From Deltaproteobacteria bacterium (GTDB lineage: Bacteria; Desulfobacterota; Desulfarculia; Adiutricales; Adiutricaceae), in contig JAITKK010000031.1 in assembly GCA_031278475.1 (NCBI GenBank), positions 1 through 48,088 of the forward strand: a DNA stretch of 48,088 nt, in the 5' to 3' direction. Shown here one piece after another: positions 17,482 to 48,088 of this stretch. Below the pieces are notes generated by a model that was given only the letters and a program-made list of their open reading frames with translations, did no database searches and was not told the DNA's origin. How positions within the stretch are numbered: position 1 is the stretch's first letter; the number at the start of each line of letters is the position of its first letter. Both the position numbers and the translations under genes were made by a program.

Positions 17482-19191
17482 ATGGACGACAAAAGGTTCG
17501 ACGAGCTGGAAGCCAAGCTTGAGATCTACAAGAGCACGCTCACGGAGATCTACGAGCGCTACGACCAGAAGCTGGAAGAGCTCTCCCTGGTGAGAAGGGT
17601 GGGCGACGCCTTGCGCACCACCCTCTCGGTGGAATCCCTGGCCTCCGCGCTCATGGCCGCGGTCGCCCACGAGGTGCTGGTCGACCGCCTGGCCCTGCTT
17701 TTGAAGGACCAGGCCTCCGACTCGGACGACAGGCTGCTTCTGAGGGCGGCCTACTGGGCGGATCGGGAGGAGTTCAGGTTCTACGGCGACCCGGAGGCCA
17801 GGGCCTGGTCCCTCTCCCGGCTGGGGCTCCCCGAGGGGGAGCTCCCGGGGCTTCTGACCCTGCAGGCGGTGCCTGCCGCGCTTGATCCCCTGGGCCAGGA
17901 GGACGAGGGCCCCAGGGCCTTGGTGCTCGCGCCCTTCCTCGTGCGCAGGAGATCCCTGGGCGTGATGATCCTTAGCAGGGCGGCGCAGCACCCCTTCTCC
18001 CAGGAGCAGGAGAGGATGCTCTCCATAATGGCGGACCAGGCCTCCGCCGCCCTTAGCAACGTCAAGCTCTTCGACGACCTGTCCTCGGCCAACGCCAAGC
18101 TCATAGAGTCAGAGCGCAGGGCGAGGGAGAGCTCCAACTACCTGGAGCGGCTTTTGGAGACCGCGAACGACGCCATACTCACGATCGACCCCTTCGGGCG
18201 GATAACCTACTCCAACCGCAAGGCGGGCCAGTGGGGCTGGACCAAGGAGGAGCTGTTGGGCAGGGACTTCAGGCTCTTCCTGGAAGACGATCCCTCGCTC
18301 CAGGAGTGGAGGCCGGGGGCGCCGCCCCCGGCCGACAGGGTCTGGGAGGCGGTCCTGCTTAACGCCCAGGGCGAGCGCAGGGTGGTCCTGGTGTCCTCAT
18401 CCTCCGCCGGGGACGACTCAGGCGAGGGCGAGCCCAGCTGGATGCTCATGGTGTCCGACCTCACGGAGAGAAGGCAGCTGGAGCGGCAGCTCCTGCACTC
18501 CGAGAAGCTCGCGTCCATAGGGGTCCTTGCCGCGGGCGTGGCCCACGAGGTGGGGAACCCACTCTCGACCATATCGGGCTACGCCCAGCTCCTGGACAAG
18601 GGCGTGGACGACGAGGCGGAAAGGCGCGAGTACGTGCAGGCGATACTCACACAGACCGGGCGCATCCAGAAGATCCTAAAGGAGCTCCTCGACTACTCCA
18701 GGCCCAGCCGCGGCATAGCCGAGACGCTGGATCTTGCCGAGCACGTGCCCAGGATCATGGGCATGCTGGAGGCGCAGCGGGTGTTCGCGAGGGTAAAGGT
18801 GGAATTCGACCTGGACAAGGCCCACGCCCCGCACCTCGTCGCGATGGACCGGGACCACCTCGCGCAGGTGGTGGTAATCATAGCCATGAACGCCGCCCAG
18901 GCCATGGCCGAGCAGGTCGACCCGCAGCCCGCGCTCAGGGTGGGCCTCGCGAGGGAGGGCGGGAGCGTGCTTCTCTCCATAGCCGACAACGGGCCGGGCA
19001 TGCCGCCCGAGGTCAGGAGGAGGGTGTGGGATCCCTTCTTCACGACCAAGGGCCCGGGCCAGGGCACGGGCCTAGGGCTCGCCATCTGCCAGCGCATAGT
19101 CGACAGCTACCACGGGCGCATGGAGCTTGTGACCTCCGAGGGCGGCGGTGCCGCCTTCACCATGGCCTTCCCCGAGGCGGTGGTCAGGTGA
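17482..19191 (+). CDS. Soluble GAF-PAS sensor histidine kinase (NtrB/AtoS type)
   Basis: Cytoplasmic sensor kinase of 569 residues without membrane segments. Order: short coiled coil (1-35), GAF-like domain (about 35-200), a second short coiled coil, PAS domain (about 210-330, with ANDAILTIDPFGRITYSN), HisKA with AAGVAHEVGNPLSTISGY and phospho-acceptor His355, and HATPase with N-box NAAQAMAE, G1 DNGPGMP, F-box DPFFTTK and G2 GQGTGLGLA. The type phosphorylates NtrC-family regulators, and the next gene encodes one, starting in the GTGA that holds this stop (4-base overlap). The signal sensed is probably a soluble ligand of the GAF or PAS domain; it cannot be named. Confidence 0.93.
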   Translation: MDDKRFDELEAKLEIYKSTLTEIYERYDQKLEELSLVRRVGDALRTTLSVESLASALMAAVAHEVLVDRLALLLKDQASDSDDRLLLRAAYWADREEFRFYGDPEARAWSLSRLGLPEGELPGLLTLQAVPAALDPLGQEDEGPRALVLAPFLVRRRSLGVMILSRAAQHPFSQEQERMLSIMADQASAALSNVKLFDDLSSANAKLIESERRARESSNYLERLLETANDAILTIDPFGRITYSNRKAGQWGWTKEELLGRDFRLFLEDDPSLQEWRPGAPPPADRVWEAVLLNAQGERRVVLVSSSSAGDDSGEGEPSWMLMVSDLTERRQLERQLLHSEKLASIGVLAAGVAHEVGNPLSTISGYAQLLDKGVDDEAERREYVQAILTQTGRIQKILKELLDYSRPSRGIAETLDLAEHVPRIMGMLEAQRVFARVKVEFDLDKAHAPHLVAMDRDHLAQVVVIIAMNAAQAMAEQVDPQPALRVGLAREGGSVLLSIADNGPGMPPEVRRRVWDPFFTTKGPGQGTGLGLAICQRIVDSYHGRMELVTSEGGGAAFTMAFPEAVVR

Positions 19192-20597
19192 GGCCCGCGG
19201 CCAACATACTCATCGTCGACGACGAGGAGCACATCCGCCGCATCATGTCCATCATGCTGGGGAAGAAGAACTACGCCTGCTCGCTCGCCGCCTCCGCCGA
19301 GGAGGCGCTGAGGATGGTATCCGGCCAGAGCTTCGACGCGGTCTTCACGGACCTCAAGATGCCGGGGCTCGACGGGCTCGCGCTGCTCGCGAGGCTCAAG
19401 GCCATGGACCCCGACCTCGTGGTGATAGTGGTCACGGCCTTCGCCTCCATGGAGACGGCCATAGCCGCCATGAAGGCCGGGGCCTACGACTACATAGCCA
19501 AGCCCTTCAACGAGGAGGAGATGGTCCTGGTCCTGGAGAAGGCCCTGGAGCGCAACCGCCTCCTAAGCGAGAACCGCAGGCTCAAAAAGCAGATGGCCGA
19601 AAGGCTGGACAAGGCCTCCTTTCTGGGCGAGAGCCCTGCCATGCAGAGGGTCTTCGACGTCATAAAGCGGGTCGCCGACACCAAGGCGACCGTGCTCATA
19701 ACCGGGGAGTCCGGGACCGGAAAGGAGCTGGCCGCCCGCTCCATCCACCAGAACGGGCCCAGGAAGGAAAGGGCCTTCGTCGCGGTCAACTGCGGGGCCA
19801 TCCCCGCGAACCTCGTCGAGAGCGAGTTCTTCGGGCATGCCAAGGGGGCCTTCACTGGGGCCGAGAAGGCCAAGGAGGGCCTGATAGCCGAGGCCGACGG
19901 CGGCACCCTCTTCCTGGACGAGGTCTCCGAGCTGCCTCTCGAGATGCAGGTCAAGTTCCTCAGGGTGCTCCAGGAAGAGGAGGTAAGGAGGGTGGGGGAG
20001 AACGCCTCCCGCAAGGTTGACCTGAGGGTGGTCGCCGCCACCAACAGGAACCTGGAGCGGGAGGTCCAGGAGGGCCGCTTCCGGGAGGATCTCTTCTACC
20101 GCCTGAACGTGATAAGGCTCGCCATGCCGCCCCTGCGGGAAAGGCGCGAGGACATCCCCATGCTCGCCAGGCACTTCCTTGACGAGGCGGTTGCCAAGCA
20201 CCAGCTGGGCAAAAAGAGGCTTACCCCGGCCGCCCTCAGGGAGCTGGGCCTGCACCCGCTCCCGGGCAACGTCAGGGCCTTGAGGAACATCATAGAGCAG
20301 GCGGCCATCATGGGCGACTCCGAGGAGATAGGCCCGAAGGACCTCATATTCGGCGACGAGGGGGAAAACCCCCCGGAAGGGGATCCGGTTGGGTCCGGGG
20401 AGCTCCTGCTCAGGCTCCCCCAGGCCTGGACGGACCTCAAGCTTTCGCTCAGGACAGTGACAGAGGCCACCGAAAAGGAGATAATAAGGAGGGCGCTAAG
20501 TGCCGCAAAGGGCAACCGCACAAAGGCCGCGGGCATACTCGGGCTCTCCCGCAGGGCGCTCATAACCAAGATCCAGCTCTACGGCCTGGGGGCCTGA
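19188..20597 (+). CDS. NtrC-family sigma54-dependent response regulator
   Basis: Transcription activator of 469 residues. Receiver domain (1-125) with the acidic pair in LIVDDEE, phospho-acceptor Asp55 in FTDLKMPG and Lys in IAKPF; AAA+ domain (about 145-370) with Walker A GESGTGKE, the sigma54-contact motif GAFTGAEK, Walker B GGTLFLDEV and an arginine-finger region FREDLFYRLNV; C-terminal Fis-type helix-turn-helix NRTKAAGILGLSRRALITKI. The start is GTG at 19188, overlapping the kinase stop by 4 bases, so the pair is translationally coupled. It should activate sigma54 promoters on kinase signal. The targets are unknown; I found no convincing -24/-12 promoter in the window. Confidence 0.95.
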   Translation: MRPAANILIVDDEEHIRRIMSIMLGKKNYACSLAASAEEALRMVSGQSFDAVFTDLKMPGLDGLALLARLKAMDPDLVVIVVTAFASMETAIAAMKAGAYDYIAKPFNEEEMVLVLEKALERNRLLSENRRLKKQMAERLDKASFLGESPAMQRVFDVIKRVADTKATVLITGESGTGKELAARSIHQNGPRKERAFVAVNCGAIPANLVESEFFGHAKGAFTGAEKAKEGLIAEADGGTLFLDEVSELPLEMQVKFLRVLQEEEVRRVGENASRKVDLRVVAATNRNLEREVQEGRFREDLFYRLNVIRLAMPPLRERREDIPMLARHFLDEAVAKHQLGKKRLTPAALRELGLHPLPGNVRALRNIIEQAAIMGDSEEIGPKDLIFGDEGENPPEGDPVGSGELLLRLPQAWTDLKLSLRTVTEATEKEIIRRALSAAKGNRTKAAGILGLSRRALITKIQLYGLGA

Positions 20598-31932: not shown

Positions 31933-34122
31933 CTAGTCCACGGCCAGGTTCTCGTACTCGGTCACGTTGTAGAGCTTCTTGAGCTGGTTCTCGCAGAAAC
32001 GGTTGACCTCCTCCATGGTGTGGGTGGAGGAGAACATCACCTTGAGTTTTTCGGTCGCAAGGCCCTTTTCTATCTTCTCAAGGTTGGGGACCGTGTCTAT
32101 GAGGTCGCCCACAAGGGCTATCCTCTTCACGATGAGGTAGGCCACGAGCGAGGTCTCCTGGAAGGAGGGGCCTATGTCGAACATGGACTGGTAGATGCGC
32201 ATGCCCTTGGTTATGAGCTTCGAGAAGTAGAGTATGGTGCCCAAGGGCGATAGGTGGAACTGGCCGTCGTCGGGCTCGGCCGCCTTTTCCTTGTCCTTGG
32301 TGTCGGTCTTCTTGTAGTGGGCGAGCTCCGCCAGAAGATCGGGATCGGTGACCTCGTAGCCCCGGCCCGCCCTTATCTCGGAGATGCCCTGCTCCATGTT
32401 CTTGACCGCGTCGAGCAGGAGATCTATCACGTCCTGGGTGACCTTCAGCTCCTTTTCCCGCACCTGGTCGAGCACGGTCTCCACCTCGTGGACGAATGTC
32501 CCCACGTTCGTGAAGCCGGTCATGATGAAGTTGCCCTTGATGGAGTGGAAGTGCCGGAATATGGTGTTGACCCGCCTGATGTTCTCCGGATCCTTTTCCA
32601 GCTGGAAGATCTCCTCGTTTAGGTCGTTCAGGATGTTTATTATCTCGACGTAGAACTCCTCGGCCATGGACTCGTCCATGGTCCCTTCCTGGGTCTTCTG
32701 GCCCGAGGGCTTGGCGTCCCCAGCGGCCTGGCCGTCCGAGGGCCCGCCGTCGGCGTCCCCCGCCCGCCCGGGGGCGGGCTCGGGCGGCTGGTCGTCGTCG
32801 TCCATGAGCGAGGAGTGGTCCATGAAGCTGCCGTCGGCCGCGTCGATTATCCTGCCGCTCGAGAGGGCTATGAGGTCGAAGGGATCCAGGACCATGCCCA
32901 GCTGGCTGCCGCCCAGGATGGTGGTGCCCGCCACCCCCCGCACGGAGAAGATCTCCGGAAGGGGTATGAGAACCAGCTTCTGGGGCCTTATGAACTCGGA
33001 GACCTTGAGGGCTATGCGCCCGTTTTTCGCGTCTATGATTATTACCGGCAGGTAGTCCTTGAACTCGGTGGATGCTAGTGGCGTCCCGGTTAAGAGCCCC
33101 CTCAGGTCGTGGAGCGGGACTATCGTGCCCAGGTAGGTGATGCTCTCGGTGCGCTCCATGGTGGTGTGCACGTCGCTCACGTTGAAGGACTGGGTGGCGA
33201 CCACGTTCCCTATGGGGACCGCGTAATAGCTCTCGCCCGAGCGGATGATGAGCGCGTCCGTGATGTTGACGGCGGAGAGCTGGGGGATCTTGTAGGTGAA
33301 GGTGGTGCCCCTGCCGGGGGCCGTGTCTATCAGGACCTCGCCGCCGAGGTTCTCGACGGTGCTCTTGACCACGTCCATGCCCACGCCCCTCCCGGATATC
33401 TCCGTCGCCTCGGAGGCGGTGGAAAAGCCGGGGAGCATTATGAGGTTCCAGGTCTCCTGCTTGGATATGGCGTGGGCGGCGGAGGCCGGCAGGAAGCCTT
33501 TCTCCACCGCGGTCTGGCGGATCCTCTGCTCGTCCAGGCCGTGCCCGTCGTCGGCCACGGAGACGTAGGTGAAGCCCTCCTTCTTGTAGGCGGTGAGCGT
33601 AAGCTGCCCCACGGGGGATTTCCCCGCGTGCTTGCGCTCCAAGGGGTCTTCGAGGCCGTGGTCCACGGCGTTCCTGATCTGGTGGGCCAGCGGCTCATAG
33701 AGCCTCTCGGCCACGGTCTTGTCAACCAGGGTGTCCTCGCCGACTATCTCGAAATTGACCTGGCGGCCCTTCTTCTTGGCGAGGTCGCGGACCAGGCGCC
33801 TGAAGCGCAGGAAGGTCTCCTTGATGGGCACCATGCGGATGTCCATCACCAGGTGGTGCAGGTCGGAGGAGATGCGGTTCGTGGTCAGGGCCACGTTCTT
33901 TATCATCTCCATGGAGTTCTTGTCGATGTTGACGGAGGACGTGGAGAGATGGCGCTGGAGGATGGAGATGTTGGAGGCGGAGATTATGATCTCGCCCGTC
34001 AGGCCCAGGAGCCTGTCCAGGTGGGAGATCTTGACCGCCATGCGGTCAAGCTCGGGGGGGCCCCCCTTGAGCGCCGGATCCTTGTGTTCGGCGGCGGCTT
34101 CGCCTTGGCCGTTACCACTCAT
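31933..34122 (-). CDS. CheA-family histidine kinase with permuted domain order (P3-P4-P5-P1-P2)
   Basis: Chemotaxis-type kinase of 729 residues. Order seen: P3 dimer helices (about 20-105, ISHLDRLLGLTGEIIISASN), P4 ATPase (about 110-290) with the CheA N-box HQIRNAVDHGLEDP, G1 VADDGHGLD and G2 GRGVGMDVVK, P5 CheW-like domain (about 293-435, SAVNITDALIIRSGESYYAV), an Asp/Pro/Gly-rich linker (about 440-490), a P1 HPt domain (about 495-600) with phospho-acceptor His526 in RHFHSIKGNFIMTGF, and a P2-like ferredoxin-fold domain (about 625-720, AYLIVKRIALVGDLIDTVPN). Normal CheA has P1-P2 first. All modules look intact. ATG at 34122 overlaps the cheY stop by 11 bases; an ATG at 34140 is also possible. 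No receptor, CheW, CheR or CheB gene is near. Confidence 0.9.
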   Translation of the reverse strand: MSGNGQGEAAAEHKDPALKGGPPELDRMAVKISHLDRLLGLTGEIIISASNISILQRHLSTSSVNIDKNSMEMIKNVALTTNRISSDLHHLVMDIRMVPIKETFLRFRRLVRDLAKKKGRQVNFEIVGEDTLVDKTVAERLYEPLAHQIRNAVDHGLEDPLERKHAGKSPVGQLTLTAYKKEGFTYVSVADDGHGLDEQRIRQTAVEKGFLPASAAHAISKQETWNLIMLPGFSTASEATEISGRGVGMDVVKSTVENLGGEVLIDTAPGRGTTFTYKIPQLSAVNITDALIIRSGESYYAVPIGNVVATQSFNVSDVHTTMERTESITYLGTIVPLHDLRGLLTGTPLASTEFKDYLPVIIIDAKNGRIALKVSEFIRPQKLVLIPLPEIFSVRGVAGTTILGGSQLGMVLDPFDLIALSSGRIIDAADGSFMDHSSLMDDDDQPPEPAPGRAGDADGGPSDGQAAGDAKPSGQKTQEGTMDESMAEEFYVEIINILNDLNEEIFQLEKDPENIRRVNTIFRHFHSIKGNFIMTGFTNVGTFVHEVETVLDQVREKELKVTQDVIDLLLDAVKNMEQGISEIRAGRGYEVTDPDLLAELAHYKKTDTKDKEKAAEPDDGQFHLSPLGTILYFSKLITKGMRIYQSMFDIGPSFQETSLVAYLIVKRIALVGDLIDTVPNLEKIEKGLATEKLKVMFSSTHTMEEVNRFCENQLKKLYNVTEYENLAVD

Positions 34123-38949: not shown

Positions 38950-39618
38950 CTTGTATTCGGCCAAGAGACCCGCGAGCTCTCCTTGATCGCTTGTAAGGCG
39001 GTGGCCCCTGTCCCTTGAGAGCAGGAGCCAGACGTCGGCAAAGCCCTTGACCAGGCCCGGCTCGTGGGTCGCGAGCACCACCGTCTCGCCCGCCTCCCTG
39101 AGGCTGGCGAGGGAGCCGGCCAGGGCGAGGGAGCCCTCCCAGTCGAGCCCAGAGAAGGGCTCGTCCAGGAACAGGGCCCTGGGTTTCCCGGAAAGGGCCC
39201 CGAGTATCGCGAGCCTCTTCTTCTCGCCGCCGGACAAACTGTCAACCGGCTCCTGGAGCCTCCCAAGGAAGCCCCAGCGGCTTGCGAGCCTCTCCTCTTC
39301 CCGGGCCCTCGCGTCTTTGTCGAGCCCCGCAAGCGAGAGCCCTATCTCCTCGCCCACGGTCTGGCCCAGGAGGAAGTAGTCCACGTTCTGGGGCAGGAGC
39401 CGGCACTCCCCGCCGCCCGGGAGGATTTCCAGCTTCCCGGAAGTGGGCTCCCTCAGCCCGGCGAGCAGGTCGAGGAGGGTGGACTTCCCCGAGCCGTTGG
39501 CCCCCAGCACCGCGAGCAGCGACCCCTTCCCCAGCTCGAGGGACAAACCCTCGATGACGGGGCCGCCGCCCGGGTAGGAGTAGCCGAGGCCCTCCGCCCT
39601 TATGGCGGGCTCACCCAT
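38935..39618 (-). CDS. bioM: BioM-like ECF transporter ATPase
   Basis: ABC ATPase of 227 residues of the CbiO/BioM group that powers energy-coupling-factor vitamin uptake. Walker A LGANGSGKSTLLD (about residues 34-46), Q-loop region LLPQNVDYFLLGQTVGEEI, signature SLSGGEKKRLAIL (about 133-145), Walker B ALFLDEPFSGLD and switch His in VVLATHEPGLV. ATG at 39618 overlaps the upstream bioY stop by 8 bases, so the genes are coupled; a longer frame to 39999 is the bioY gene read in another frame. The transmembrane BioN that normally joins BioM and BioY is not encoded here. Confidence 0.88.
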   Translation of the reverse strand: MGEPAIRAEGLGYSYPGGGPVIEGLSLELGKGSLLAVLGANGSGKSTLLDLLAGLREPTSGKLEILPGGGECRLLPQNVDYFLLGQTVGEEIGLSLAGLDKDARAREEERLASRWGFLGRLQEPVDSLSGGEKKRLAILGALSGKPRALFLDEPFSGLDWEGSLALAGSLASLREAGETVVLATHEPGLVKGFADVWLLLSRDRGHRLTSDQGELAGLLAEYKLRPL

Positions 39619-40198
39619 CCGCCCCCGGCGCCTGCCCCCCGCCGCCCGACGGCCCTTCTCTCGCCGGCCGTAACCTCGCGGCCGATACGGCAAGGAAGGC
39701 CGCCGCCAAGAGCTTTGCCGCGTCCCCTGGGAGGAAGGGCAGATCCGCGTAGAGGGAAAGGGCCCAGGAAAGTTTGAGAGTGAGGTGGATGCCCGCAATC
39801 CCGCAGCCGTGGATGAGAAGGGTCGCCAAGGCCCCGAAGGCCAGGAAGCCCCCGATGCGTTTCGCGCCCCCCTTGGCCGCAAGCCCGGCCACGAAAGCCG
39901 CCGGGGCGAAGGCCAGGGCGTAGCCCACCGTGGGCCCGAACAGGATGCCCGGCCCAGCCGCGCCCTCCGCGAATACCGGAAGCCCAATGAGCCCCGCAAC
40001 CAGGTAGGCGAGCGCCGGGAAGAAGGCCCAGGGCCCCTCCATGAAGCCGCAGAGGATAATGAAAAACGTCTGAAGCGTGATGGGCACTGGCCCTATGGGT
40101 ATGGCGATGTAGGCGCCAACCGCCATGAGAGCCGCCCAAATGGCGCACCTCACGGCAAGCTCTATGTCCTTCCTGGCAAGGGATGCGGCCTGGCCCAT
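39611..40198 (-). CDS. bioY: BioY biotin transporter substrate-binding subunit, copy 1
   Basis: Integral membrane protein of 195 residues with about six helices that captures biotin. BioY family blocks: YIAIPIGPVPITLQTFFIIL (about 29-48), GFMEGPWAFFPALAYLVAGL, GLPVFAEGAAGPGILFGPTV and a VGYALAFAPAAFVAGL helix. The basic C-terminal tail is longer than usual and overlaps the bioM start. ATG at 40198 follows AAGGA by 6 bases. It is nearly the twin of the upstream copy 2 for residues 1-110, a sign of recent duplication or gene conversion. Confidence 0.9.
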   Translation of the reverse strand: MGQAASLARKDIELAVRCAIWAALMAVGAYIAIPIGPVPITLQTFFIILCGFMEGPWAFFPALAYLVAGLIGLPVFAEGAAGPGILFGPTVGYALAFAPAAFVAGLAAKGGAKRIGGFLAFGALATLLIHGCGIAGIHLTLKLSWALSLYADLPFLPGDAAKLLAAAFLAVSAARLRPAREGPSGGGGQAPGADG

Positions 40199-40322
40199 GG
40201 TTCTTCCTTGATTCTTCCTTGGCTAAAGTTGCGGGGATGGTTTGTTGGGTAAATAAGGGTTTTGTCAAGTTATTGGGAGCAAGGACTTATTCTTCGCCGA
40301 TAGCGAAGTTTGCCCGTGGGCC

Positions 40323-40877
40323 TTAACTTTGCGAGCCATACTTCCGTGCCCAGGGGAACCTGAGCGCCCCTGCCGCGAGGGCCGCGGCGGCTATCACCTT
40401 CAGGCCCGCGCCCGGGAGGAAGGGAAGATCCGCATAGAGGGATGCCACCCAGGAGAGATTCAGGGACAGATGCATGCCCATGATCCCGCACAGGTGCATG
40501 AGGATGGTCGCCAAGGCGCCGAAAACCAGGTACTTCCAGGGCTTTGGCCTTATGGCCGCGAAGCCCGCGACGAAGGCGCAGGGGGCGAAAGACAGCGCGA
40601 ACCCCCCCGAGGGCCCGAAGAGGATGCCAGGGCCGGCCGCGCCCTCGGCGAAGACCGGGAGCCCAATGATCCCCGCCAGCAGGTAGGCGAGCGCCGGGAA
40701 GAATGCCCATGGCCCCTCCATGAATCCGCAGAGTATTATGAAGAAGCTCTGGAGCGTTATGGGCACGGGCCCTATGGGTATGGACACATAGGCCCCGACC
40801 GCCATAAGCGCCGCCCATATGGCGCACCTCACGGCAAGCTCGATGTCCTTCCTGGCAAGAGACTCTTGTTGGGTCAT
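40323..40877 (-). CDS. bioY: BioY biotin transporter substrate-binding subunit, copy 2
   Basis: Membrane protein of 184 residues, first gene of the unit bioY-bioY-bioM. It shares with copy 1 the stretch LARKDIELAVRCAIWAALMA, the IPIGPVPITLQ motif and GLPVFAEGAAGPGILFGP; the C-terminal third differs more (YLVFGALATILMHLCGIMGM, end FPWARKYGSQS). ATG at 40877 has AAGGA 6 bases upstream; an ATG at 40898 would add 7 residues without one. The 125-base gap to copy 1 holds no other gene. Either copy could work alone, as solitary BioY proteins do, or the two may bind different but related molecules. Confidence 0.9.
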   Translation of the reverse strand: MTQQESLARKDIELAVRCAIWAALMAVGAYVSIPIGPVPITLQSFFIILCGFMEGPWAFFPALAYLLAGIIGLPVFAEGAAGPGILFGPSGGFALSFAPCAFVAGFAAIRPKPWKYLVFGALATILMHLCGIMGMHLSLNLSWVASLYADLPFLPGAGLKVIAAAALAAGALRFPWARKYGSQS

Positions 40878-41527
40878 CCTTGTTCCTTCGGGTGTCACGG
40901 GATTTCATTTTTAGGATTTTTGATGCGGTATTTTGTTTTTTGTGTCGTTACTTGCTACTGCGAGCCGAATAACGATTTTGGGAAGTCGCGAGAAGTATCC
41001 AAATGTTATGCGTTGTTATGGGTTGTGATGCGATGCGATGCGATCTGTTATGCGTTGGAATGCTCTGGAATGCTCTGTAATGCTCTGTAATGCGATACTT
41101 CCTTATAGCCGTATTATAATGAACGTCCGACTTTACCAGCCGTGATATCCCTTTTCATCAGGGCCGTAAGCATTTTGCGAGCTGCCAAAAATACGCGTTT
41201 GAGTGGTTATTTGTGCCCTATGGTTGGTATTTCACCTTGGGAATTGCCTGTAAGCAGGCATAAGGAACAACAATCCGCATAATTACTTTAGAGCGGGCTC
41301 TCCGTGCTTCGCACAAGGACGCTTGCGTTGCTTCGCACAAGGCCGCATAAGTTTCCGCACGCAAGGACGCAACGCGTTGCCCCAAAGCGGATAATTTAAC
41401 AACACTGAATTCAGGATGGGACTTAAGCGTGCTTTGATGCGCCAGAGCCGTCACGGGGAAGCGCAAGCCGTTATACGGGCAGGGCAGGCCACGGAAGGCC
41501 TTGCAAGGGGGAAGCGAACTGGCGCGG
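40878..41527. other. Gene-free region upstream of bioY
   Basis: About 650 bases without a supported gene. It contains the GATGC/ATGCTCTG array at 41012-41092, an AT-rich patch near 41100-41120, and at 41306-41350 two copies of TGCTTCGCACAAGG 24 bases apart. An 82-codon minus-strand frame (41218-41466) over the latter has an Ala/Cys/Glu repeat but no start signal. No BirA-type operator was recognised. Confidence 0.4.
41012..41092. repeat. Mixed 5- and 10-bp tandem array
   Basis: Starts as GTTATGCGTTGTTATGGGTT, passes through GATGC repeated four times (period 5), then GGAATGCTCT, GGAATGCTCT, GTAATGCTCT, GTAATGCGAT (period 10). It lies about 140 bases upstream of the bioY-bioY-bioM unit. Confidence 0.75.
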
Positions 41528-46114: not shown

Positions 46115-47377
46115 TCAACCGAATGGCCCTCGGGGCCTTCGAGGGGGCCTCTTGCGTCCCTTTCGGGACAGGAGCGCAACCGCGGATGCCGCGAGGCCCT
46201 CGCCGCGGCCCAGGAAGCCCATGCCCTCGGTGGTCTTCCCCTTGAGGTTGACCCTTGAAACCGGGATTCCCAGTATGGCGGCCAAGGCCTCCCTTATCTC
46301 CAGGCGCCTAGGGGCAATCCTGGGGCTCTCGCCTATGAGGGTGAGGTCCAGGTTCTCTATGGCGTGGTCCTTGCCAGCCATGCCCCAGGCGAGCGTCAGG
46401 AGCTCCCTCCCGGAGGCCCCCCGGAAGGCTTCCGAGCCGTCCGGGAAGTGCTGGCCGATGTCCCCGAGGCAGGCCGCCCCCAGGATGGCGTCTATCAGGG
46501 CGTGGGTGAGCACGTCCGCGTCCGAGTGGCCCGCGAGCCCGGGGGGGCCACCGAAGTGGACGCAACCCAGGTAGAGCTCCCTGTCGGGCGCGAAGCGGTG
46601 GAAGTCCCAGCCTTGGCCGACCGAGAGGGACGGGGCAGGGCCCCGGGCGCGCCCGGGGCCCCTGGCCCCGTCCCTCGCCCCAAGCAGCGCCTCGGCCATC
46701 GCGAGATCCTCCCTGTCGGTGATTTTGAGGTTCCAGCCGTCCCCGGGGACGATTGCGACCTTGGCCCCCGTCGCCTCCACAAGGGAGGCCTCGTCGGTTG
46801 CGCCGGAGGGGTCGCCCTTTCCCATGGCCTCCTCCAGCAGGGCCACGCTGAAGGCCTGGGGCGTCTGGGCCAGCCAGAGCCCCTCCCTGGGAAGGGTCTC
46901 GGCGACGGTCCCGCTCTCCCCGGCCTCCTTCTTCAAGGTGTCAGGGAGCCTCCTCGCGAGTATCGCGGCCCCCTGTTCCAGTGCCTTGTCCAGCACCCGG
47001 GTGACATCGGTCGCGGTCGCGAGCGGGCGCGCCCCGTCGTGGATCACCGCGTGGGAGTACTCCCCGCCCAGGGCCTTTAGCCCAAGGGCCACGGATTCCC
47101 CGCGGGTGGCGCCCCCTGGGCATAATATGAGCCTGCCGTCCTTGGGATCCAATGGGGCGAGGCTTTGGGCGAAGGGCCACATAAGCGCCCGCGGGGCCAC
47201 CACGACGACCTTCCCGATCCTCCCGTGCCCCAGGAGGAGCCCCGCGGCGTGGCACACCACCGGAATCCCGCAAAGTGGCCGCAGCTGCTTGGGGAGCCCG
47301 GGATCCCCCCCGAAGCGGGCCCCGCTTCCCGCCGCCGCCACCACCGCGCCTGCCTTCTTGGTATCCGTTCTGCCCAT
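46115..47377 (-). CDS. ispDF: Bifunctional IspD-IspF isoprenoid enzyme
   Basis: Fusion of two non-adjacent steps of the MEP pathway, 420 residues. The IspD half (about 1-235) makes CDP-methylerythritol: VVAAAGSGARFGGDPGLPKQ (10-29), HDGARPLATATDV, TDEASLVEATGAKVAIVPGD and GWNLKITDREDLAMAE. The IspF half (about 250-420) makes the cyclodiphosphate: GWDFHRFAPDRELYLGCVHF with metal-binding Asp and His, GHSDADVLTHALIDAILGAA, GDIGQHFPD and TTEGMGFLGRGEGLAASAVA. Such fusions are known from alpha-, epsilon- and some deltaproteobacteria. ATG at 47377 gives the proper IspD opening; the frame runs upstream to 47632 without similarity. Confidence 0.95.
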   Translation of the reverse strand: MGRTDTKKAGAVVAAAGSGARFGGDPGLPKQLRPLCGIPVVCHAAGLLLGHGRIGKVVVVAPRALMWPFAQSLAPLDPKDGRLILCPGGATRGESVALGLKALGGEYSHAVIHDGARPLATATDVTRVLDKALEQGAAILARRLPDTLKKEAGESGTVAETLPREGLWLAQTPQAFSVALLEEAMGKGDPSGATDEASLVEATGAKVAIVPGDGWNLKITDREDLAMAEALLGARDGARGPGRARGPAPSLSVGQGWDFHRFAPDRELYLGCVHFGGPPGLAGHSDADVLTHALIDAILGAACLGDIGQHFPDGSEAFRGASGRELLTLAWGMAGKDHAIENLDLTLIGESPRIAPRRLEIREALAAILGIPVSRVNLKGKTTEGMGFLGRGEGLAASAVALLSRKGRKRPPRRPRGPFG

Positions 47378-48088
47378 GGCGTAAGCCCCGGCCGCCCGGT
47401 ATTCGCCGGGCGGGTTGGAAAAAGATACGAACCAGATAGCCGGGTTCCGTGGGGGCTCCCGCCCCAGGCGGCCATCCGCCCGGGCGGGGGCCCAAGCCAC
47501 CAACCCGGAAACATCACAGGCGGATTCGCGATCCCCCTTTTGGGCCTTGCCCCCGGCAGGGGGCATGGCCCGGCATTTCACCTTTGCCGGAGGGTGGGCC
47601 GCGGGCGGCCCGCCCTCCGCTGGGTAACCCAAGGCAAAAGCCGCTGGCCGCTAGCCATTGCCTTGCCTTGCTGAGCCCGGACTCTTCCCTAGGCCCAAGG
47701 GACCAAAGCGGCCGCCGGGCCGGCCAGGAGCTTCTGCCTACTTTACATGATGCCGGCCTTTTGGCCAAGGGCGGGGGGAGTCCTTGGCGGACGGGGGACC
47801 ATGAGGGCATTTAAGTGATTGCAAATATAGAATTTTTAGGTATTGTTCTGGATGCCCACTTGCCTTGCCGCAAGGGCGGACACGGGGGGGTCATTGGTGG
47901 ACATGTGTGGACATGGATGGACATTTGCGGGTATGGGATGAAGTAAAAAAGATATTCCAGAACGAATTCCTCAAAGATGGAACATTTGCAATAATCCCGC
48001 GACACCCGCAAATATCGATTGTACCTTGACGAAAGCCTCAAAAAGTGCATTTTGCAATAGTCCCGCGCAAGCTTTGAGAAATAATTTT
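47378..48088. other. Gene-free window edge with short repeats
   Basis: About 710 bases to the end of the window with no supported gene. 47902-47931 holds TGGACATG-type words with period about 10. Near the edge, 47970-48001 and 48037-48067 are imperfect direct copies of a roughly 32-base sequence ending TTGCAATARTCCCGCG, 67 bases apart. Bases 47811-48088 are AT-richer than the ispDF side. The sequence is cut by the window, so a gene starting beyond it cannot be judged. Confidence 0.4.

Follow-up and report, generated by a model that had tools for sequence, protein, structure and literature searches.

CheA is described as a kinase of five domains, P1 to P5, in fixed order. The protein reported here has the same five domains, H-box and ATP-site motifs as the canonical CheAs of E. 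coli, T. maritima and B. subtilis, and its core is ∼34–36% identical to the solved CheA cores in a fold comparison, but P1 and P2 stand behind P5, on a linker of ∼60 residues, and not ahead of P3; moreover, its family constitutes a distinct clade with other partner genes. Among the described departures from the canonical architecture, CheA3 and CheA4 of Cereibacter (Rhodobacter) sphaeroides are similar in that they likewise possess a P3-P4-P5 core without an N-terminal P1; their P1, however, is located on a separate protein, whereas core, P1 and P2 are here united in one chain (PMC10782961, PMC2829493). Bipartite CheAs, the HPt domain of which has a gene of its own within the operon, also show that a connection from P1 to P3 via P2 is dispensable, yet their HPt remains separate while P1-P2 of the present protein are covalently joined to P5 (PMC10782961). 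That survey of 13,673 CheAs analysed presence, absence and duplication of domains, that is, composition and not order, and its text mentions neither a permuted order nor Nitrospinota (PMC10782961). Literature searches yielded no description of the order P3-P4-P5-P1-P2, and NCBIfam offers no equivalog at cut-off for the permuted CheA.

The window, that is, the entire stretch of 48,088 nucleotides analysed here (contig JAITKK010000031.1 of a Deltaproteobacteria bacterium), encodes the protein in a single minus-strand frame of 729 codons, running from an ATG at 34122 to the stop at 31933, while the plus strand across 31933–34122 contains stops. One frame thus carries all domains (Table 1), and P1 and the core are not split between separate proteins.

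Table 1. Coordinates of the permuted cheA, its domains and its two neighbours in the window.
Feature	Position	Strand	Details
permuted cheA, order P3-P4-P5-P1-P2	31933..34122	(-)	729 aa; Pfam, phmmer, AlphaFold
P3 dimerisation hairpin, residues 30-95	33838..34035	(-)	Pfam H-kinase_dim; two long helices (AlphaFold)
P4 HATPase_c, residues 141-281	33280..33702	(-)	Pfam 55.0 bits
P5 CheW-like domain, residues 290-419	32866..33255	(-)	Pfam 48.6 bits, 134/138 profile positions
P5-P1 linker, residues 424-484	32671..32853	(-)	Ala/Glu/Pro/Gly-rich; low pLDDT
P1 HPt domain, residues 486-578	32389..32667	(-)	five helices (model); Pfam Hpt 41.1 bits
His526, predicted phosphorylation site	codon 32547-32545	(-)	invariant in 48/48
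P2 response-regulator-binding domain, model 626-728, Pfam 655-712	31939..32247	(-)	Pfam, AlphaFold
cheY-like gene, single receiver, 134 aa	34112..34516	(-)	Pfam Response_reg 94.6 bits
receiver-coil-receiver partner, 309 aa	30938..31867	(-)	Pfam Response_reg 188-297; AlphaFold

Pfam detects H-kinase_dim, HATPase_c, CheW, Hpt and P2 in this order. HATPase_c and the CheW-like domain occur in one chain, score above their Pfam cut-offs and are matched by all 48 relatives. The H-kinase_dim match (21.0 bits; E = 4.6e-4) falls just below the 23-bit cut-off, but is likewise present in 48 of 48 relatives, and a CheA-type dimerisation domain adjoins HATPase_c in spite of this score. P2 was identified from the Pfam match in combination with the topology of the model: the former amounts to 24.4 bits against a cut-off of 23, and is found in all 48 relatives with E-values of up to 0.1. 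When full-length E. coli CheA (654 aa; PDB 6s1k) is compared by phmmer, residues 487–586 of the query align to residues 9–108, and residues 28–421 align, non-collinearly with the former, to residues 264–644. Because P1 and the P3-P5 core thus align to E. coli CheA in swapped order, the protein has the order P3-P4-P5-P1-P2, i.e., the same five domains cyclically shifted, with P1 no longer N-terminal to P3. In phmmer searches against solved structures, P1 also matches the P1 structures of E. coli, T. maritima and other CheAs, and His526, the Hpt histidine in the motif F-H-S-I-K-G, is aligned to the histidine of E. coli P1 in H-S-I-K-G.

The AlphaFold model (48-row alignment, mean pLDDT 74) exhibits the folded domains in the same permuted order: a two-helix P3, P4, P5, a disordered linker (pLDDT below 50 for residues 425–481), a five-helix P1 and a C-terminal β-α-β-β-α-β domain, which we take to have the topology of P2. 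The top Foldseek matches of the model are the CheA cores 1b3q, 3ja6 and 6s1k. As a control, the domain sub-models used to read the order of the permuted proteins place P1 ahead of the core in canonical CheAs with a detectable P1. Hence, the claim of the initial annotation that a complete set of modules occurs here in permuted order, with HPt and P2 at the C-terminus, is borne out by Pfam, phmmer and AlphaFold alike. An N-terminal HPt missed upstream is ruled out because the preceding gene is cheY, the end of which overlaps the start of cheA by 11 bp.

The permuted order was found in at least 67 genomes from three phyla, a distribution wider than first stated, with a few of the copies split or cut by contig ends. 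The census covers these three phyla; a larger genome collection was scanned for exact occurrences of short peptides from the window protein, a scan that distant relatives would escape, and a tblastn search of plasmids gave no collinear full-length match among the best 20 records. In Desulfobacterota, the phylum of the window, 35 of the 37 Adiutricaceae-level genomes carry the gene (34 with a full-length match, and G029 on two contigs), as do two genomes from another family of the same order, Adiutricales. The profile of the permuted protein sets it clearly apart from other CheAs, as end-to-end matches are confined to permuted proteins: in a sample of 395 Desulfobacterota genomes the weakest permuted match reaches 1252 bits, and the next-best CheA, covered in its core only, 343 bits. 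The gene is present in 20 of 24 genomes of Nitrospinota (the phylum of record L037), one copy being cut by a contig end, and in the third phylum, with records titled Planctomycetota, in 3 of 199 sampled genomes; within one order of that phylum it is found in 10 of 18 genomes, two of these ten copies being frame-broken. A copy listed as core only (L034) turned out to be permuted as well, but truncated where its contig ends. L118 was rejected as a further permuted CheA, its P1 domains preceding the core, and so was L092 from Nitrospinota as a split-CheA intermediate, since its frame is truncated where the contig ends and L090, which is closely related to it, has an N-terminal P1. At L090 (G439:C359) and L092 (G438:C106), in two Nitrospinota genomes, a further CheA gene precedes a distinct gene that has an HPt match of its own. 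One Adiutricaceae-level genome from a genus group of carriers (G018, 91% complete) has no CheA, FliG_C or PilT match over cut-off and a single weak receptor match, apparently having lost the taxis machinery.

His526, K529 and G530 as well as the ATP-site residues N151, D191, G193, G195, G244, G246 and G248 are invariant in all 48 aligned permuted CheAs. Between the window protein and L009, dN is 0.034–0.078 in the five domains (P5: 0.05, versus a dS of 0.70) but reaches 0.39 in the P5-P1 linker, at dS values of 0.41 to 0.83; other relatives mostly exhibit the same pattern where dS is not saturated. By these comparisons, purifying selection acts on each of the five domains but not on the linker, and the tail domains are thus selected like the core. 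The linker varies between 49 and 72 residues across the family, and its identity is 10% when Nitrospinota are compared with the Adiutricales/Planctomycetota-titled group; of the domains, P2 is conserved least, with 32% identity across phyla. Most carrier genomes are metagenome assemblies and two copies from the Planctomycetota-titled order are each spread over two frames (G666:C176 and G667:C360, for which sequencing error or early decay is possible), which could suggest an artefact of assembly or annotation, or else a decaying fusion. The complete chromosome CP026657.1 (Smac51, L028) carries the gene, however, dozens of independent assemblies contain it intact at 35–88% identity, and its catalytic residues are invariant in domains under purifying selection. 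We thus reject an assembly artefact on the grounds of conservation across genomes and presence in a complete chromosome, regard decay as having a negligible probability, and concur with the initial view that the protein represents a rearrangement.

In a tree of 33 permuted and 47 canonical cores, the permuted cores fall on one side of a branch of length 1.13 with an SH-aLRT support of 100. They also grouped in an earlier tree containing fewer permuted Nitrospinota sequences, where only the contig-cut permuted L034 was mislabelled. In a separate tree of P1 domains, the permuted ones form one clade as well (support 100/99). Since cores and P1 domains each form one clade, a single origin is likely, and constitutes the simplest reading. 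Neither tree reveals a clear canonical sister of the permuted CheAs, and the two halves may therefore differ in source, a truncated P3-P4-P5 protein, such as C. sphaeroides CheA4, having gained an unrelated C-terminal P1-P2. We consider such domain accretion possible but the less probable history, for the tail comprises both P1 and P2, in the order specific to CheA, and its P1 matches CheA P1 structures. A true circular permutation could have proceeded via, e.g., a tandem duplication. Permutation and accretion would differ in their history but not in the function of the product. The Planctomycetota-titled sequences are nested among those of Adiutricales, which suggests transfer between the two groups. 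At 60–63% identity, too low for contamination by known relatives, such contamination is unlikely, although a binning error is formally possible.

The genes flanking the kinase recur along with it. cheY is located immediately upstream in nearly all loci, and in an alignment of members from three phyla its product retains the acidic pair, phospho-Asp, Ser/Thr and Lys. The gene 3′ of cheA encodes, in most loci, a receiver-coil-receiver protein of about 305 residues; where either partner is absent from the neighbourhood table, this may be due to a contig end, to divergence or to a break. The AlphaFold model of the window protein (pLDDT 91.6) consists of a degenerate first receiver (REC1, residues 3–134), a helix of 35 residues (144–178) and a second receiver (REC2, residues 187–308). 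Its nearest PDB folds are the tandem receivers of PleD, with which it shares two receiver folds in tandem and from which it differs by the long helix between the receivers and by having neither GGDEF nor any other output domain. Among 38 sequences, the phospho-Asp position of REC1 is not conserved, while in REC2 D236 and K289 are invariant, T267 is nearly so and the acidic pair is eroded. The receiver-coil-receiver protein diverges faster than the kinase, with 16–26% identity to the Nitrospinota members. The set cheY–permuted cheA–receiver-coil-receiver is conserved in three phyla, so that the partners first noticed in the window, a CheY and a tandem-receiver protein, are indeed kept elsewhere. 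Nothing else is common to the neighbourhoods across these phyla, with no recurring receptor, CheW, CheR or CheB gene, and no such gene was found among the window proteins scanned with Pfam, which cover part of its open reading frames, in keeping with what had been proposed for the locus. Elsewhere, the window encodes a GAF-PAS histidine kinase with a sigma-54 activator response regulator behind it, their listed frames overlapping (17482–20597, plus strand), an IspD-IspF (YgbB) fusion protein (46118–47632, minus strand) and, at 39611–40898 on the minus strand, two adjacent and very similar membrane proteins of ∼190 residues each, apparently from a recent tandem duplication. Judged by eye, this pair is presumably of the BioY transporter type.

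Considering domain order, completeness, invariant active-site residues, purifying selection, the single clade and the three-gene set, all of which derive from sequence, we assign a probability of roughly 0.7 to the reading that the protein is a complete and catalytically competent CheA, the P1-P2 arm of which moved once from the N- to the C-terminus in the ancestor of a distinct clade. Its phosphotransfer, receptor coupling, CheY docking, the role of its partner and its output we infer as follows. P3 would dimerise the kinase, and P5, which retains the full CheW-like fold, would connect the dimer with receptors and CheW from other loci of the genome. P4 would bind ATP and phosphorylate His526 on a P1 that reaches it on the disordered tether of ∼60 residues from the P5 end and, if E. 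coli CheA is any guide, belongs to the partner subunit. P2, at the far end, would dock the CheY encoded just upstream, which would then take the phosphate on its aspartate. The receiver-coil-receiver protein would be a dedicated second partner that most likely serves as a competitor, a phosphate sink or a scaffold, given that REC1 is devoid of a conserved phospho-Asp and REC2 keeps Asp, Thr and Lys while its metal-binding acids are eroded.

It had also been proposed that the kinase might act without arrays; it could then be a soluble phosphodonor regulated by the receiver-coil-receiver protein rather than by receptors. The recurrence in three phyla of CheY and this protein, which resembles a regulator or scaffold, without an accompanying receptor, CheW, CheR or CheB gene is consistent with the proposal. 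P5, however, is complete and under purifying selection, all 38 carrier genomes checked have at least four receptor (MCPsignal) matches elsewhere in the genome, and the kinase is absent from those checked genomes that gave no receptor match; only two of the seven genomes checked that lack the permuted kinase have two or more receptor matches. An array-free kinase is thus not supported, since all 38 hosts have receptors, and we consider it improbable. The co-occurrence among related genomes is supportive of receptor coupling, yet makes for a weak link to arrays because chemotactic genomes carry everything. As for the output, five carriers (G438, G439, G447, G459 and G462) have no FliG_C match; four of them (G438, G439, G462 and G459) form a group in the core tree and possess PilT, while one carrier (G647) has no PilT match. 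Neither the flagellum nor the type IV pilus can therefore be the sole output, and neither machine is strictly required. It is a long shot that the three genes constitute a distinct chemosensory module in which the attachment of the P1-P2 arm to P5 allows the receiver-coil-receiver protein to gate or bridge P1/P2 at the P5 ring; if true, this would provide control of the kinase, or cross-talk of neighbouring core units, by a route absent from canonical CheA.

The discovery of the permuted CheA implies that surveys of CheA by composition only can miss an architecture. The family also defines a dedicated receiver-coil-receiver partner, for which the role suggested above is a candidate. Furthermore, a natural family with P1 at the P5 end bears on the question of P1 sequestration: in one regulation model, or predicted state, of E. 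coli CheA, P1 is packed close to where the P3 bundle has its N-terminus, while experiments on detached P1 have been discussed as discounting sequestration (PMC10653900). The role of tether and order is thus testable, by comparison with an N-terminal tether, with respect to P1 sequestration, trans-phosphorylation in the dimer and array packing. Being intact and long conserved with its domain order rotated, the family hence provides a natural test of whether the order of domains in CheA matters.
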